Below, one piece after another: positions 17,490 to 60,311 of a DNA stretch of 64,000 nucleotides. A program made the position numbers and the translations under genes. The DNA is taken from positions 7,132,501 through 7,196,500 of the forward strand of contig NC_092317.1 in the NCBI RefSeq assembly GCF_036785885.1, written 5' to 3'. The notes under the pieces were generated by a model. The model saw only the letters and a program-made list of their open reading frames with translations. It was not told the origin of the DNA and made no database searches. Position 1 is the first letter of the stretch. The number at the start of each line of letters is the position of its first letter. The stretch is from Coffea arabica. Taxonomy: Eukaryota; Streptophyta; Magnoliopsida; Gentianales; Rubiaceae.

Positions 17490-20400
17490 TCATCTGCCCT
17501 CTACTTCTGAAATGGTGACTTTATTCATGGAGCAATGTACTGGATTTTGAGGTAAGTTGGCATTCTTGAGACTCATAATTTCCGAAAAAGCTGGTCTCTT
17601 CGGAGAAGCAAGAACCATGGATTCGTTGAAGAGCATAGATACGACTTCTGACATGGTTGGTCTGTCTGCTGCCTTCTCTTGCACACACAACAAACCAACT
17701 TGAACGCATTTTAGTGCTTCAGGTTTTGGAACTGCTTCATTTAGACTAGAATCTGTAATATCTGAAAGACTTCCTTCTATCCATAAATCCCAGACCTGAA
17801 ATAAAAAACAAGAAATGTGATGAATGATCATTGCTCAAATTAATGAAGCTGAAACATGGAATTCGGAAATATAAACGACTCGAAATATATTATGAATCTT
17901 ACATGTCCTATTAAGTTCAGATGACGGTCAGAGTCATGGAAAGCAGTGTTTTTCTTCCCAGTTATGATCTCAAGAATCATGACTCCAAAGCTAAACACAT
18001 CAGACTTCTCAGAAAAAATACCATCCATGGCATACTCAGGAGACATATAACCACTGTTGCAGCACCAAATGAAAATGATCATAGCTAATCTAGGGTTTCA
18101 TGAAATGTGTAGTTCTCCTAAAAACAGTAACAAGAAAAAGAAGTCTTTGAACTTACTATGTCCCAACAATTCTACTCGTGTTTGCACGCAATTCATTATC
18201 TCCAAAAATTCTGGCGGTTCCAAAATCTGAAATTTTGGGATTCATGTCATTGTCCAGTAAAACGTTGCTTGGCTTTAGATCTCTATGGATGATTTTTAAT
18301 CTAGAATACTTATGAAGGTATAGAAGTCCTTGAGCTACCCCTTCAATGATTTTCAACCGAGCTTTCCAATCTAGTACATCTTGCTTTGCTGTATCTGTTA
18401 GAAAATGTTGGAGTCTTTTCACAAACATACTTTCCGTTGACAACAAAATCAACATTACTAGGTAATAATTCTTACCAAAAAGAAACGAATCCAAACTTTT
18501 ATTTGGCAAGTACTCGTATACTAATATCCGCTCCTCTCCATGAGTACAGTAACCTAGCAATTTAACAAGGTTTCGATGTTGCAGCTTGGAGATGACTGTA
18601 ACTTCATTCTTGAATTGTTCTGTTCCATATATGGTCATTTTGTTCAGTCTTTTCACTGCAACCTCCAGCCCATTATTAAACTTACCCTGACATGAAAATC
18701 ATTACTCGGGTCATGTGAAATGAGTGATACCATTAGGATTCAGTTACCTAAAATCAATTTTTAGAAACGAAGATGTTGTGTGAATCAGCTTTCAAAATGA
18801 AGCGGGGTTCTTAGAGGGAACTCTTTACCTTGTAGACAGGCCCAAATCCTCCTTGACCAAGTCTTTTGGCTTCAGAAAAATGGTCAGTGGCACTCTCTAT
18901 GCTTGAAAAACTGAAAAAAATTGATTCATCGTCCTCTTTGTCACCGTCTGCTGACCATTCGACTCTTTTCAATTTATTTATAGCTGTGCAAAATAAATAC
19001 TGCTCTCAGCCCATCTGGTTAGGATAGAGTGTCATAATAAAAATTGTTGCACCTTATCAAAAGAAATAAAAAAGAGTGAAGTACCTCCAATTCCACTAAC
19101 TTTTTTCCTTTGCAAGATGCAATACAAAGAAAGCAGTGTAAGAGTTGCCAGAAATGGTGCTACAACACCAATAGACAATTTCAACTTCCACGTTGATTTC
19201 TGTCTCTTAGAAGAGCCAAGAGCAGGGGTTGGCGAATCATTAGGAACTACATTAGTAGAAAAAGAATCAGCTTTGTTTTAATCTAAATTCATTTGATTGG
19301 CTACAAGAGAGTGCTTATAGCAGAGCACATTTTCTTAATTAAACAACTTGAACAGATGATTGTATAATCTTGGCTACACAATATTGAACGAACAAGGAAT
19401 AAAAAAAGGATGAAGATATCATCAATATACAAACATTAGATATTTCTACAGCTGGCCAGCCTGAAATAAAAAAATAACGGACAATTACTAATGGTCTCCA
19501 CGCCCCAGATTCCAGGAGCGGTACAATACCTCCTGGTATTGCTCTTGCGTCCTAGCTCAATGACTGATCTAATTTGCACAATACACCGTTCAATCGACAT
19601 ATAAACGGGGAACCAATCTGATATTTGGCACTCCTGATGCAGATTTTTTATTACCATGTCAAATATCTACAAGTATTATGGCACAATCATCATGAAAGCA
19701 TTGCATCTATTCTGGATAAGCACTAGCCAACAATCACCTAAAGAAGACATGGTCATTTCAGATGACTGTGCCTGATAAACTGTACAATATCATCAAATGC
19801 CAAACATCGAAATGTAAAGAGTAAAAGAGTCACGACATGGATCAATATATACTGATTAGTTTTAGAATTACATGTTAGTCCCAATATCAGGTATCCATGA
19901 ATGCACTGCAATGACCTCTAACTAAACTTACCTCAAAATCAATATAATTTTGGAAAATTTTAGCATCCCTTTTGAGTACCATACCCATAGTTATAATCCA
20001 ATAATCTATTATCACATAATTCAATAATTTAAAGTCCTAAAATCATTTTAGAACCGATATTTCTTTTACATATTTAACAGTGAATTGATACTCATCAATA
20101 TGGGTACTACTCCATACTCAAAAGGTACGGTAGAAGTCCATAATTTTGCGAACTTTTCTGTTACCCTTAATGGATCAAATGGACATAAGGTCTATAAGTA
20201 TATGCTATTCTAAGTTTAGAGGGCAAAAAATAAAAAAAAATACAGGGATAAAAGTATAATTATATAAATCCAAACCACTGCCAAAACTCACCTCCCATGG
20301 GGATATATAACAGATTCCCGGCGGTGAAGTTAGCCGTTGGATTATATCTCTTCACCAAATCAGCAGTCAAATTATTCGCAGCAGCCACGGACTCCAGCGT

Positions 20401-20952
20401 CTCCCCATCCTGGACAGGCCACGTAACAAAGTACCTGTATCCATTCGACACCTCCCCGCCGCAGGAGCAATTCACAGGCACGTTCAGGACACCAATATGC
20501 GGGACGGAAACACCATTTCCGGGATAAGAATTGAACCTCTTCAACCAAGCGGCACTGGTCAAATTAGAATAGGACACTTTTGCGATTGTATCAAAAGTTG
20601 TTTGGGTTGACGACGTGACATTGTAGCTGAAAACACGGGCTAAAAAGTTGTTATCGAAGCAGTCACAGTTAAAGGGTATGTTTATTCTGATTCCGGCCAG
20701 GAGTATATCCCTGCCGGGAACTATGCTGATATTGGCCCGGTTGCTGTCGGTTATGCTTGCTGTTGGGATGTTGAAAAGACTGGCAATGTAAGTTAAATTT
20801 TCGCCAGCCCAGGTGTAGTAGGAGCCTTGAGCTAAGTCGCAGCCTGAGGTGCAGCTTCCATGGACTTGTGAAGTTTGGACTGAGAATAGGATTGCGGTCC
20901 TAAGAAGTAGTAATCGCGGAATTAGTGTTCTTGATTTGGATGAGAAGAACAT
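17490..20952 (-). CDS. LysM receptor-like kinase with a DUF26/SD1-type kinase domain (unit 1)
   Basis: Seven exons: 20292-20952, 19085-19246, 18829-18983, 18476-18686, 18157-18394, 17903-18053 and 17490-17795 (627 aa; all junction phases fit). The signal peptide covers about residues 1-32. The LysM ectodomain has the C..C..CxC..CxC pattern (C34, C38, C96/C98, C162/C164) and most resembles CERK1-type chitin receptors. A short linker and a transmembrane segment (about 244-265) follow. The kinase has [10 protein letters not shown], the lysine in [12 protein letters not shown] and DFGTAR, so it should be active. The kinase and its exon pattern are those of cysteine-rich/S-domain receptor kinases, not of LysM kinases. 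An earlier in-frame ATG at 21042 would add 30 residues; 20952 gives the better signal peptide. The likely role is cell-surface sensing of chitin-like glycans. The 1-kb intron 1 leaves some doubt that both halves form one transcript. Confidence 0.72.
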
Positions 20953-21778
20953 GATCGGATTGAGACTTCTTTGCTGGTAGAAGAAGTTGGGACTAAGGGG
21001 GAAGAGAAGTAAGGGTGAGAAATTTTGTGGGGCGTTGTCCATTCTTTGTTTAGCATTTTAAATTAATAATGTTTTTTTTCTCTTCTAGAGATAATTTTGA
21101 AAATAGTTCTCAATATTTGTTATCCAATCGAGTTGGAGAGGAAAATTAAATTTGAAGACGACAATTGCACAATATAATTAATAGCATTTTATGCGCATTT
21201 AATTGAAATTGAGACAAATTTGATTCATTGTGTGATACTACAACTTTGTAGGTGACAAAATTTGTTGAACTTTGCTCGTAGCATCTATATTTATATATAT
21301 CAAATCCTCCTATGTTTATCCACCTAGTGGATTATTTTCCATATATTTCTTTCTTTCCCTTATTTGAACGTTGGAGATTTCATTTTTTGTAATTTTAGAG
21401 AGTTGCAATTTTGATCTCCAATATTTAAAAGATAGACTAAAATGATCCTTTATGTTTTGCAAAAATAAATTTAGTTCCATATGTCTAAAAAATGAAACAA
21501 TTTGACCTCATATTGGTTTGGACAAAAACTAACTCATAGTCTTAATATAGTCTCATAATCTTAATAACTAATCTAATTTTTTACTACAAAATGAAAGAGA
21601 ATAGAGGTTGGTGATGTGGTGGTGGTTCACTGAGTCATAGAAACAGTCATATTAAAGACAAAATAGAGGTCGATGTTGGTAGACTGAGTCATAGATTTCT
21701 AAATGTCTTTTGCCTCATAAATTACCCTACGTGCTAAGGATAAACAAAAACTTGAAAAGTTATATGTTAGGTTTAGTC

Positions 21779-59130: not shown

Positions 59131-59426
59131 CTGCTCTTAGTGTAAAAATTTTTATACACTGTCAGTGTAAACATTTTTTTGCATGCACAAATGCACAGGT
59201 TTAGATGAATGACACATATCACCGTTCAAATTTTAAATTTACTTTATGCCGTGGGACATATGTCTATACGACTATATCTATTAGTGTAAAAAATCTTTAT
59301 ACTAACCTTGTATATAATCCAAAGTCTATATATCTAAATCATCGTCAAAACTTACCTCACAATGCAGTTTTATTTATTGCATTACGATAAGTCTCTGAGA
59401 TTTTATTCTCAAGCAATGCTACTAAA
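59131..59426. other. Spacer between K5 and the chitinase
   Basis: An AT-rich spacer with two TTAGTGTAAAAA motifs (about 59137 and 59281) and a small inverted part. The intron sequence that units 2-4 share upstream of the linker exon is replaced here from the base after the acceptor, so recombination or an insertion took place at this exon edge. No exon is seen. Confidence 0.55.
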
Positions 59427-60311
59427 TTAGATACTACCTTTGATAGCTGAACTATATCCGCTGTCAAAATATTTGTTCCAGATCATGACCCCTGCGTACT
59501 TGTGAGAGGACTTGATGGATGGTAGAACCTGAGAAATGAGCGCATCCGGTGGAATATACCCTCCGTCCGCAGCCGCTGGAGCTGCTGGTACTCCTAGGAA
59601 GATCTGATTGGAATGAACTGAGGTCCATTGGTTCCATGCCGCTATCAGGTTATCAGCATTAGTCGAATATTGACATTGCCCATTGTTGTAAAATTGTATC
59701 CAGACATAATCGAAAAGGCCAGTGCTGATAGCTGTGCTTAGATCAGCATCAGGGAACGGGCACTGTGGAGCCGCAGATAAGTACACCTTTTTCTGCGAGC
59801 TGAATCCAGAGAGCGCCCTGGCCAGATTGTCCCAATACAGGCCTGTCCCGCTTTCAATAGAAAAGTCTATACCGTCTAGAACAGCATGTCCAAGCGGGCG
59901 GGAACGTGATTGACCGCCCAAGAAATTGTTCCAAAGGTAATTGGCGACTTGCCTTGCATCGTCGGCGGAAGTAAGGCTCTGGTTTCCAACCGCACCTCCA
60001 AGGGAAAGCAGCACTTTGATGTTTTGGTTCTGGCAATCATTTATTTCAACACTTAAGGAGGTGCAGGTGCCTGCGCCGGGGTTGCAATGGCCGGCTAAGT
60101 TCAATACTGGTGTGTTTCCACCGCCAAAGGTTGTCAGAAATGCCAGGTTCACGAACTGATAGTTTCCACTGGCGCATGTGTCGGCCAAGCTTCCTTCATC
60201 GCCGTTTTGACCCCAGTAGACGGCAACTCCTGCAGCTTGTGAGGACTGGAATAGGGATACCATCATCAACAGTGAGGATGCTAAGAATGGTAACCACGTT
60301 AAACCCGCCAT
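59427..60311 (-). CDS. Class III chitinase-like GH18 protein with altered catalytic motif
   Basis: A single-exon frame of 294 codons with a signal peptide (1 to about 26, ending SSQAA). The GH18 barrel starts [19 protein letters not shown], and the class III cysteines are present. The catalytic DxxDxDxE motif reads D146-G-I-D149-F-S151-I-E153: the acid residue E153 is kept, but the Asp two positions before it is Ser. In GH18 enzymes that Asp positions the substrate N-acetyl group and the acid, so hydrolysis is probably weak or lost while chitin binding may remain, as in other GH18 lectin-like proteins. The length is normal for a secreted class III enzyme. It lies directly upstream of K5 on the same strand and holds the place taken by LysM or PR-1 in other units. 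A TATA box lies about 100 bp upstream. Confidence 0.9.

Follow-up and report, generated by a model that had tools for sequence, protein, structure and literature searches.

Layout of the array and its ancestral units

The window, the whole stretch of 64,000 nucleotides analysed here, carries five receptor kinase modules (K1–K5), all on the minus strand, as are all features given below. K2–K5 are 92–95% identical to one another in DNA sequence, K1 is 75–76% identical to them, and 5′ of K1–K5 lie, in this order, a LysM module, a PR-1 gene, a natriuretic-peptide gene, a second PR-1 gene and a class III chitinase. DNA identities and domain matches agree here with the preliminary description, which had reported five kinases on one strand, near-identical in units 2–5 and related in unit 1, with these modules upstream. 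It had, however, taken the array to be five units ending at 60311. In fact, the kinase array extends past the window end, with eight units modelled on this contig (C8) and more beyond, and a counterpart array, on the other haplotype or subgenome, lies on contig C7 (seven units modelled, more beyond). In a genome search with the kinase, all matches of at least 83% among those listed fall in one of these two arrays, so that the resemblance within the array is not due to chance; 40 of 127 candidates were scored, and the counts are lower bounds.

K1 (17490–19246) has an exon model with splice sites, a frame and a Pfam kinase match: a transmembrane (TM) exon at 19246–19085 is followed by kinase exons at 18983–18829, 18686–18476, 18394–18157, 18053–17903 and 17795–17490, and K1 is intact on C7 as well. 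The K2 kinase (23147–24898) combines an open kinase core with a one-base frameshift in its hinge. K3 (32113–33780), K4 (42867–44492) and K5 (57499–59130) each comprise a hinge-TM exon (33780–33400, 44492–44148 and 59130–58786, respectively) and kinase exons. The kinase core is free of stops in all 15 copies modelled on C8 and C7; a candidate C-terminal DUF3403 tail, as in G-type lectin receptor kinases, reaches 18.5 and 17.7 bits, short of the curated 28.9. Most array copies are young (dS below about 0.2) and the unit 1 kinase is older (dS 0.75–0.83); its core shows a dS of 0.068 and an omega of 0.07 between C8 and C7. The private codon changes of K2, K3, K4 and K5, with silent-to-replacing ratios of 6:1, 5:5, 13:9 and 8:3, are well short of neutral, subject to the caveat of gene conversion. 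As the kinases of units 2–6 do not group by unit across C8 and C7, they seem to recombine, and a low omega may consequently be borrowed from intact copies, which weakens it as proof of function.

The common part of the units had been described as the kinase module. The kinases are indeed alike, but a 5′ block (P) that precedes every secreted module is common to the units, too. It lies at 21007–21546 in unit 1, 27426–28112 in unit 2, 39253–39674 in unit 3, 52904–54154 in unit 4 (in two pieces, 52904–53466 and 53903–54154) and 60547–61204 in unit 5. In unit 4, a repeat-rich insertion at about 45705–52904 sets the block apart from PR-1.

In the outer units 6 and 8 on C8 and 6 and 7 on C7, a B-lectin domain, hinge and TM share one ORF (Pfam B_lectin E 5.4e-15 for C8 unit 6, 1.7e-13 for C8 unit 8 and 2e-13 for C7 unit 7). 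Two B-lectin units are damaged, C8 unit 7 by a frameshift in the hinge and C7 unit 7 by a stop in the juxtamembrane part. In four first-exon frames searched at E 0.1 or 0.01 for S-locus glycoprotein and PAN domains, Pfam returned B_lectin only. Relics of such an exon persist around replaced units: its 5′ part at 28635–28872 upstream of unit 2 (88% to the unit 6 B-lectin exon), its 5′ end at 62738–62891 upstream of unit 5 (91% to unit 6), further 5′ relics at two places on C7, and a relic of its 3′ codons before the hinge in five PR-1 or plant natriuretic peptide (PNP) units.

The secreted modules and their junctions with the kinases

On C8 as well as C7, unit 1 forms a sound chimaera, with a CERK1-like LysM exon (20292–20952) in splice phase with a non-LYK kinase. 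The donor GAG|GTGAGT, in phase 1, fits the K1 TM exon and scores 6.2 bits with an untrained matrix, and the frame from LysM to K1 is continuous on C8 and C7. The ectodomain matches LysM receptor kinases in the PDB (best E 8.6e-48) and PF23577 LysM_RLK (58.6 bits, cut-off 27), and its omega between the contigs is 0.47. The K1 kinase, an older paralogue of the array kinases, scores 207–215 bits with BAK1/BRI1 kinases versus 165–170 bits with CERK1/LYK3-type kinases. Because the genes are intact and constrained on both contigs, unit 1 most likely encodes a functional receptor that combines LysM with a non-LYK kinase. In the second LysM unit of the counterpart array (C7 unit 2), a single ORF contains LysM, an 18-codon PR-1 scrap, TM and kinase, which is direct evidence that local recombination makes fusions at this locus.

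But how could the other modules reach their kinases? An in-frame stop lies just 5′ of the hinge in all seven replaced units examined, which excludes plain read-through and makes a splice necessary. Splice paths were searched from ATG to donor with a single intron, using the untrained donor matrix. The hinge is in frame in six of the seven replaced units, though its repeats are multiples of three anyway, and the TM and juxtamembrane codons (48 codons) have a near-neutral pN/pS of 0.85 in the seven replaced units versus 0.49 in one B-lectin pair. An independent signal-peptide first exon, proposed earlier as a check for K3, K4 and K5, was not recognised between module and kinase in K2–K5, judged without a signal-peptide program; in unit 5 most of the gap is a dispersed repeat, elsewhere it is PR-1 3′ flank, and we rejected such an exon.

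The unit 2 PR-1 gene (26276–27212) is broken, as first described, by an insertion at about 26571–27036 and small deletions. Its unit 4 counterpart (45004–45501; CAP) retains an intact stand-alone frame of 165 residues with its own stop. It is followed by a PR-1 3′ flank (44539–44985), which ends 47 bp before the K4 hinge exon and aligns, at 80%, to the 3′ flank of the stand-alone PR-1 gene L008. A relic of this flank, common to units 2 and 4, is also found in unit 3 (33780–34048), where the last bases before the hinge are a B-lectin relic. PR-1 omega is 0.78–1.00. The single-intron search found no in-phase donor near the PR-1 end; the sole in-phase donor of unit 4 scoring above 0, CAG|GTGGTT, lies inside the CAP domain and would remove the last 43 of the 165 residues. 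Given the own stop, this internal donor and the stand-alone 3′ flank in between, splicing of PR-1 to K4 was rejected, and one coding sequence of PR-1, TM and kinase, which would mark a PR-1 receptor kinase, was not found. Units 2 and 4 most likely hold a dead or separate PR-1 gene beside a kinase without an ectodomain.

In unit 3, the natriuretic-peptide module differs from its first listing: the gene is broken by a 1.5-kb element with a previously unlisted DUF568/DOMON reading frame. The EG45/PNP-type whole-gene copy (34049–37387; DPBB_1) is 94–97% identical to four genes on contigs C11 and C12 and comprises exon 1 (36411–36304), a split exon 2 and its own last exon and stop. A MULE-like element (34487–36020), with 198-bp terminal inverted repeats (TIRs) that are 90% identical and a 9-bp target duplication (8 of 9 alike), sits at the start of exon 2; this site is uninterrupted in all four C11/C12 genes. 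We rejected splicing of PNP to K3 on account of the own last exon and stop, the broken exon 2 and the uninterrupted relatives; the single-intron search found no good in-phase donor, and PNP is not joined in frame to the TM kinase, as it would be in a natriuretic peptide receptor kinase.

Captured within the element is exon 1 of a DOMON-cytochrome b561-type gene (35071–35776, ATG at 35699), 95% identical to genes on C1 and C2; the source gene continues with a b561-type exon. The captured frame matches DUF568 (E 4.7e-31) and, compared with its relative L036, shows 8 silent and 4 replacement codon differences, changes on the relative's branch included, with all gaps in frame. Its donor AAT|GTAAGC at 35084 and the K3 acceptor TTGCAG|GCT are both in phase 0, and splicing may yield a DOMON-kinase. 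The strongest in-phase donor is inside the domain (4.0 versus 2.1 at its end), and donor 35084 could alternatively join the last PNP exon, ending the protein. The element resembles Pack-MULEs in its long TIRs, 9-bp target duplication and captured host exon, but here the captured exon has come to lie 5′ of a TM-kinase exon and in phase with it for splicing.

Unit 5 contains a whole-gene copy of a class III chitinase (59364–60425, CDS 60311–59430; hevamine E 6.6e-116), 85–87% identical to four stand-alone genes; the alignment extends to 59364 for two of these and to 59421 for the other two. Its catalytic DxDxE reads DxSxE; the second catalytic Asp is lost on both contigs and kept in the four closest stand-alone relatives, and the C8 and C7 copies differ by 6 silent and 5 replacement changes. 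A phase 1 donor at the end of the chitinase domain, AAG|GTAGTA at 59437, would have to use TAAG|AG, a poor acceptor; the GCAG next to it leads to a stop after a few codons; the strongest in-phase donor is inside the domain (3.0 versus 2.3 at its end). Between the chitinase and the K5 hinge lies the dispersed repeat (59147–59317), with at least 16 further genome copies at 71–77%. By splicing, unit 5 may give a chitinase-kinase.

Formation of the array

Overwriting of ectodomains is supported. At a probability of roughly two in three, we regard the locus as a tandem array of B-lectin receptor kinases in which genes for other secreted proteins have repeatedly overwritten the first exon, always at the same position and in one orientation. 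Units of the ancestral type hold B-lectin, hinge and TM in one exon, as seen past the window end. In the replaced units, a cassette with the common 5′ block occupies the place of the middle of the B-lectin exon, as its relics on one or both sides of several of them show. The contents of the cassette changed, probably from LysM to PR-1 and then, in part of the units, to a chitinase or natriuretic-peptide gene. Local recombination joins modules, as seen in the C7 ORF. PR-1, PNP and chitinase arrived as whole-gene copies with their own stops, presumably copied from relatives on other contigs, and the MULE-like element afterwards carried the DOMON exon, complete with a splice donor, into unit 3. 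The original proposal that local recombination swaps ectodomains finds backing in the common flanks, the B-lectin relics and the C7 fusion ORF, but a good in-frame junction exists within the window in unit 1 only. More tentatively, and with the odds against it, the slot between the fixed 5′ block and the TM-kinase exon could be refilled by landing secreted genes, with at least three fills (LysM, DOMON and altered chitinase) made as kinase fusions and the transposon-captured exon yielding a redox- or haem-type receptor kinase.

That every unit is one fused receptor, with each secreted module spliced to its own kinase, deserves very little credence. The in-phase, strong-donor junction of unit 1, the direct fusion in C7 unit 2, the matching phases of the DOMON donor and K3 acceptor, the donor at the end of the chitinase domain and the chitinase itself, with few differences between contigs and an Asp lost on both that stand-alone relatives keep, would all fit. 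However, both PR-1 and PNP carry stops of their own, the one in-phase donor of the unit 4 PR-1 that scores above 0 costs 43 residues, the supposed intron after PR-1 is a stand-alone gene's 3′ flank, and all seven replaced units examined have a stop ahead of the hinge; the best in-phase donors of units 3 and 5 are internal to the domain, the chitinase depends on a poor acceptor, and the DOMON donor could instead serve PNP. One receptor per unit has good support in unit 1; it is possible for units 3 and 5 and unlikely for units 2 and 4.

Somewhat unlikely, in our estimate, is a graveyard in which, save for unit 1 and some B-lectin units, gene conversion keeps beheaded kinases alike and chance has brought in the secreted genes as ordinary transposed duplicates. 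The whole-gene nature of PR-1, PNP and chitinase, the PR-1 omega, the near-neutral TM codons of replaced units, the kinases' failure to group by unit and the damage to the unit 2 hinge and PR-1 point this way. Against it stand the open kinase cores (15 of 15), the private codon changes of K2–K5 (with the gene conversion caveat) and, in small numbers, the mostly silent changes and in-frame gaps of the DOMON copy; moreover, that LysM, PR-1, PNP, DOMON and chitinase all lie kinase-sense in the same slot would be improbable by chance. We place rather little weight on a conversion of the beheaded kinases into cytoplasmic ones, with a start at a Met that follows the TM. Met-Gly follows the TM in 9 of 13 copies shown, and the DUF26 family gives a precedent for cytoplasmic kinases arising by loss of ectodomain and TM (PMC6368629), but the Met is gone in C7 unit 3, the Gly is gone in C8 unit 6, and the hinge frame is kept in six of seven replaced units.

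Relation to known receptor kinases

The outer units resemble G-type lectin (S-domain) receptor kinases in joining B_lectin to TM and kinase, but no S-locus glycoprotein or PAN domain follows the lectin in the four first-exon frames scanned. Unit 1 shares its ectodomain with LYK-type LysM receptor kinases (CERK1, NFR1), whereas its kinase is a paralogue of the B-lectin array kinases, LYK kinases not being the closest. CHRK1 belongs to another chitinase class than class III. It and other GH18-kinase proteins, of which 91 plant sequences are reported (PMC5485988), likewise have a chitinase-like module 5′ of a TM kinase, but the array chitinase is of class III, hevamine-like, and its fusion relies on a weak acceptor. 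In PR-1 receptor kinases, CAP proteins with TM and kinase domains reported from cacao, wheat, rice and others (PMC10189770), PR-1 also lies 5′ of TM and kinase; the array PR-1, in contrast, has retained a stop and a 3′ flank of its own and lacks a good in-phase junction. Thaumatin-like kinases (PR5K/TLP-K) join a defence protein to a kinase and form a tandem cluster in poplar, with, as far as the accessible source goes, one kind of ectodomain per cluster (PMC3048497), unlike the several kinds in one slot here. For CRKs, chimeric genes after tandem duplication have been suggested; that exchange is between receptor families (PMC6368629), whereas the array also involves stand-alone secreted genes and a MULE-borne exon. 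Among the titles and abstract openings searched, which include few subscription papers, we found no single cluster with several such ectodomains and no DOMON or LysM on a B-lectin-type kinase.

Views on how new receptor ectodomains originate have mostly been drawn from ancient fusions, among them PR5K, CHRK1 and the PR-1 kinases. Here, one locus and its counterpart display several steps of receptor making next to each other, and since most copies are young, the sequence still shows directly where the breakpoints lie, which genes are related to the inserted ones and what one empty transposon site looks like. The locus allows us to ask which step, insertion, recombination or splicing, makes a receptor of a parked secreted gene. 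The LysM exon on a B-lectin-type kinase, finally, would lend itself to testing whether another kinase class can serve chitin-type perception.

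Extent and probable B-lectin ancestry of the array

All five kinase copies of the window (K1 to K5) lie on its minus strand; K2 to K5 share 92-95% DNA identity among themselves, whereas K1 is 75-76% identical to them. The modules 5' of K1 to K5 are, in order, a CERK1-like LysM exon, a broken PR-1, an EG45/natriuretic-type gene (DPBB; PNP below), an intact PR-1 and a class III chitinase. The layout given in the preliminary description is thus partly confirmed, with corrections: the array is longer, and the PNP gene carries an inserted element. The 1.198-Gb assembly (G000) was searched, in which the window lies at C8:7132501-7196500, and twenty 10-kb pieces gave a counterpart array on contig C7 and flanking sequence on either side of the window. 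Eight kinases were modelled on C8 and seven on C7, and the kinase core is open in all 15. Additional copies lie farther along, and for two of these farther units 1.9 kb upstream of each kinase was sampled. Among the matches listed (the best 40 of 127 candidates scored), kinase matches of at least 83% fall only in the array or its C7 counterpart. More distant copies of the same family adjoin the array on the opposite strand, both on C8 (L023-L024, C8:7225058-7226732) and on C7 (L019, C7:7663717-7665390). The window also holds a KIP1-like reading frame (Pfam; 9938-10936, plus strand) and a 195-aa open frame (15265-15852, minus strand) for which a Pfam search returned no match at E 0.01.

Units 6 and 8 of C8 and units 6 and 7 of C7 each encode a B-lectin domain, a Ser/Pro-rich hinge and a TM segment in a single reading frame; Pfam scans of three of these four gave B_lectin in each. 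In the two sampled farther units, one of them Pfam-scanned, the B-lectin frame reads into the hinge to the limit of the pieces. C8 unit 7 has all three parts but a frameshift in the hinge, and the B-lectin kinase of C7 unit 7 (L018, C7 about 7657252-7659453) has a stop after the TM, in the juxtamembrane segment; its C8 counterpart has Gln at that position, yet its own hinge frameshift. Relics of the 5' part of the B-lectin exon precede units 2 and 5 of the window and occur at two sites on C7, and five PR-1/PNP units keep the last B-lectin codons before the hinge, now including an in-frame stop (KSTTC*LQ or KSTTY*LQ versus RSTTCCLQ). Because of these relics, we infer that the replaced units descend from B-lectin units. 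A common 5' block precedes the variable module in every window unit.

Whole genes in the first-exon position

The PR-1, PNP and chitinase modules arrived as whole genes, and all retain their own stops. Unit 4 PR-1 aligns to a stand-alone PR-1 gene on C4 (L008): the match begins 111 bp ahead of the ATG, covers the coding sequence and takes in the 3' flank to within 47 bp of the K4 hinge exon. What looks like an intron in units 2-4 thus consists largely of PR-1 3' flank. Part of this flank persists in unit 3, which thus probably once held a PR-1. At 45004-45030, array PR-1 copies end RPYLQL or RPYLKL, L008 stopping at RPY, and this stop loss is common to all array copies seen. The PNP copy (37387 to 34049) shares 94-97% identity with four C11 and C12 genes, and the chitinase copy (60425 to 59364) shares 85-87% with four genes on C21, C22, C3 and C4, the alignment of two of them reaching no further than 59421. 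Between 5' block and inserted gene lie an inverted-repeat element in unit 3 (37719-38549; arms of about 300 bp, 89%) and, in the unit 4 insertion, tandem and inverted repeats of about 0.9 kb (46733-52551).

An in-frame stop precedes the hinge in all seven replaced units examined, so that in these a module-kinase fusion would require a splice. Of the in-phase donors in unit 4 PR-1, a single-intron search leaves just one with a positive score (in bits, on an untrained matrix), and it cuts the CAP domain; omega of the PR-1 copies is 0.78-1.00. The whole-gene insertions are probably not receptors.

Chimaeras and candidate fusions

Beside the whole-gene insertions stand three further items: the unit 1 chimaera, a C7 fusion and a transposon-borne exon in fitting splice phase. 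On its sequence, unit 1 is one sound receptor chimaera. Its LysM exon ends GAG|GTGAGT in phase 1, matched by the K1 TM exon, and the LysM-K1 frame is unbroken on both C7 and C8. A comparison of the two contigs gives dS 0.068 and omega 0.07 for the kinase core and omega 0.47 for the LysM part, in which 11 of 14 replacements fall within residues 45-47 and 81-104 of the compared piece. C7 unit 2 demonstrates directly that local recombination produces fusions: LysM, an 18-codon PR-1 scrap, TM and the first kinase part share one uninterrupted frame, canonical splice sites carry the remainder to its end, and a piece from the PR-1 5' end (residues 1-44) sits upstream. Since some 60 of 218 residues are missing from the end of its LysM part and its kinase has two odd residues (NPIISDFG, GTCGYM), it is doubtful as a working receptor.

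In unit 3, PNP exon 2 is interrupted by a 1.5-kb MULE-like element with 198-bp terminal repeats (90% identical) and a 9-bp target duplication (8/9 bases alike). The insertion site is intact in all four C11/C12 genes, and the two halves overlap by 10 bp in alignment. Within the element, 706 bp match at 95% identity a C1/C2 gene of a type that we take to be DOMON-b561; many genome-wide copies of 34685-34943, at 89-94%, occur among the matches listed. Past KN|GTAAGC, the next exon of the C1/C2 gene reads IHGILNVVSWG and gives a weak Pfam cytochrome b561 match (E 0.002; 18.8 bits, cut-off 23; 87 residues). As this gene continues into a membrane exon, the phase-0 donor at 35084 is most likely genuine and would normally join such an exon. 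The K3 hinge exon starts after TTGCAG, also in phase 0. Between the DOMON copy and its relative L036, 8 codons differ silently and 4 by replacement, every gap being in frame. Against a DOMON-kinase fusion, a rival in-phase donor within the DOMON part scores higher (4.0 versus 2.1), and the last PNP exon offers a competing acceptor that would terminate the protein.

In both array chitinases the catalytic motif has lost its second Asp (DFSIE on C8, DFAIE on C7), which the four closest stand-alone relatives keep (DFDIE); between the two array copies there are 6 silent and 5 replacement changes. The loss fits a role in binding instead of catalysis, but could be drift. A donor at the domain end (AAG|GTAGTA) scores 2.3 and another inside the domain 3.0; the matching acceptor (TAAG|AG) adjoins a dispersed repeat, and the neighbouring GCAG acceptor would yield a stop.

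Constraint and interpretation

Across C7 and C8, kinases from units 2-6 fail to cluster by unit and so seem to recombine with one another; consequently, the low omega among K2-K5 (0.08-0.23) and their private changes are not independent. For TM codons, pN/pS is 0.85 in seven replaced units versus 0.49 in one B-lectin pair.

The proposal that ectodomains are swapped here is partly supported, by the overwriting, the unit 1 chimaera and the C7 fusion; the whole-gene insertions are probably no receptors. We consider the locus best explained, with a probability of about two in three, as a tandem B-lectin receptor kinase array whose first exons were overwritten repeatedly by secreted-protein genes. 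That it is a receptor-making slot, with at least three fills (LysM, MULE-borne DOMON and altered chitinase) expressed as kinase fusions, seems unlikely. Two findings lower the confidence in both slightly: the frameshift in C8 unit 7, and the internal donors that score higher. The locus shows a receptor first exon repeatedly overwritten by unrelated secreted genes in the same slot and orientation. As chimaeric kinases are already described (PMC10189770, PMC3048497, PMC5485988), and domain exchange has been suggested for CRKs (PMC6368629), it is a variation on a known theme.
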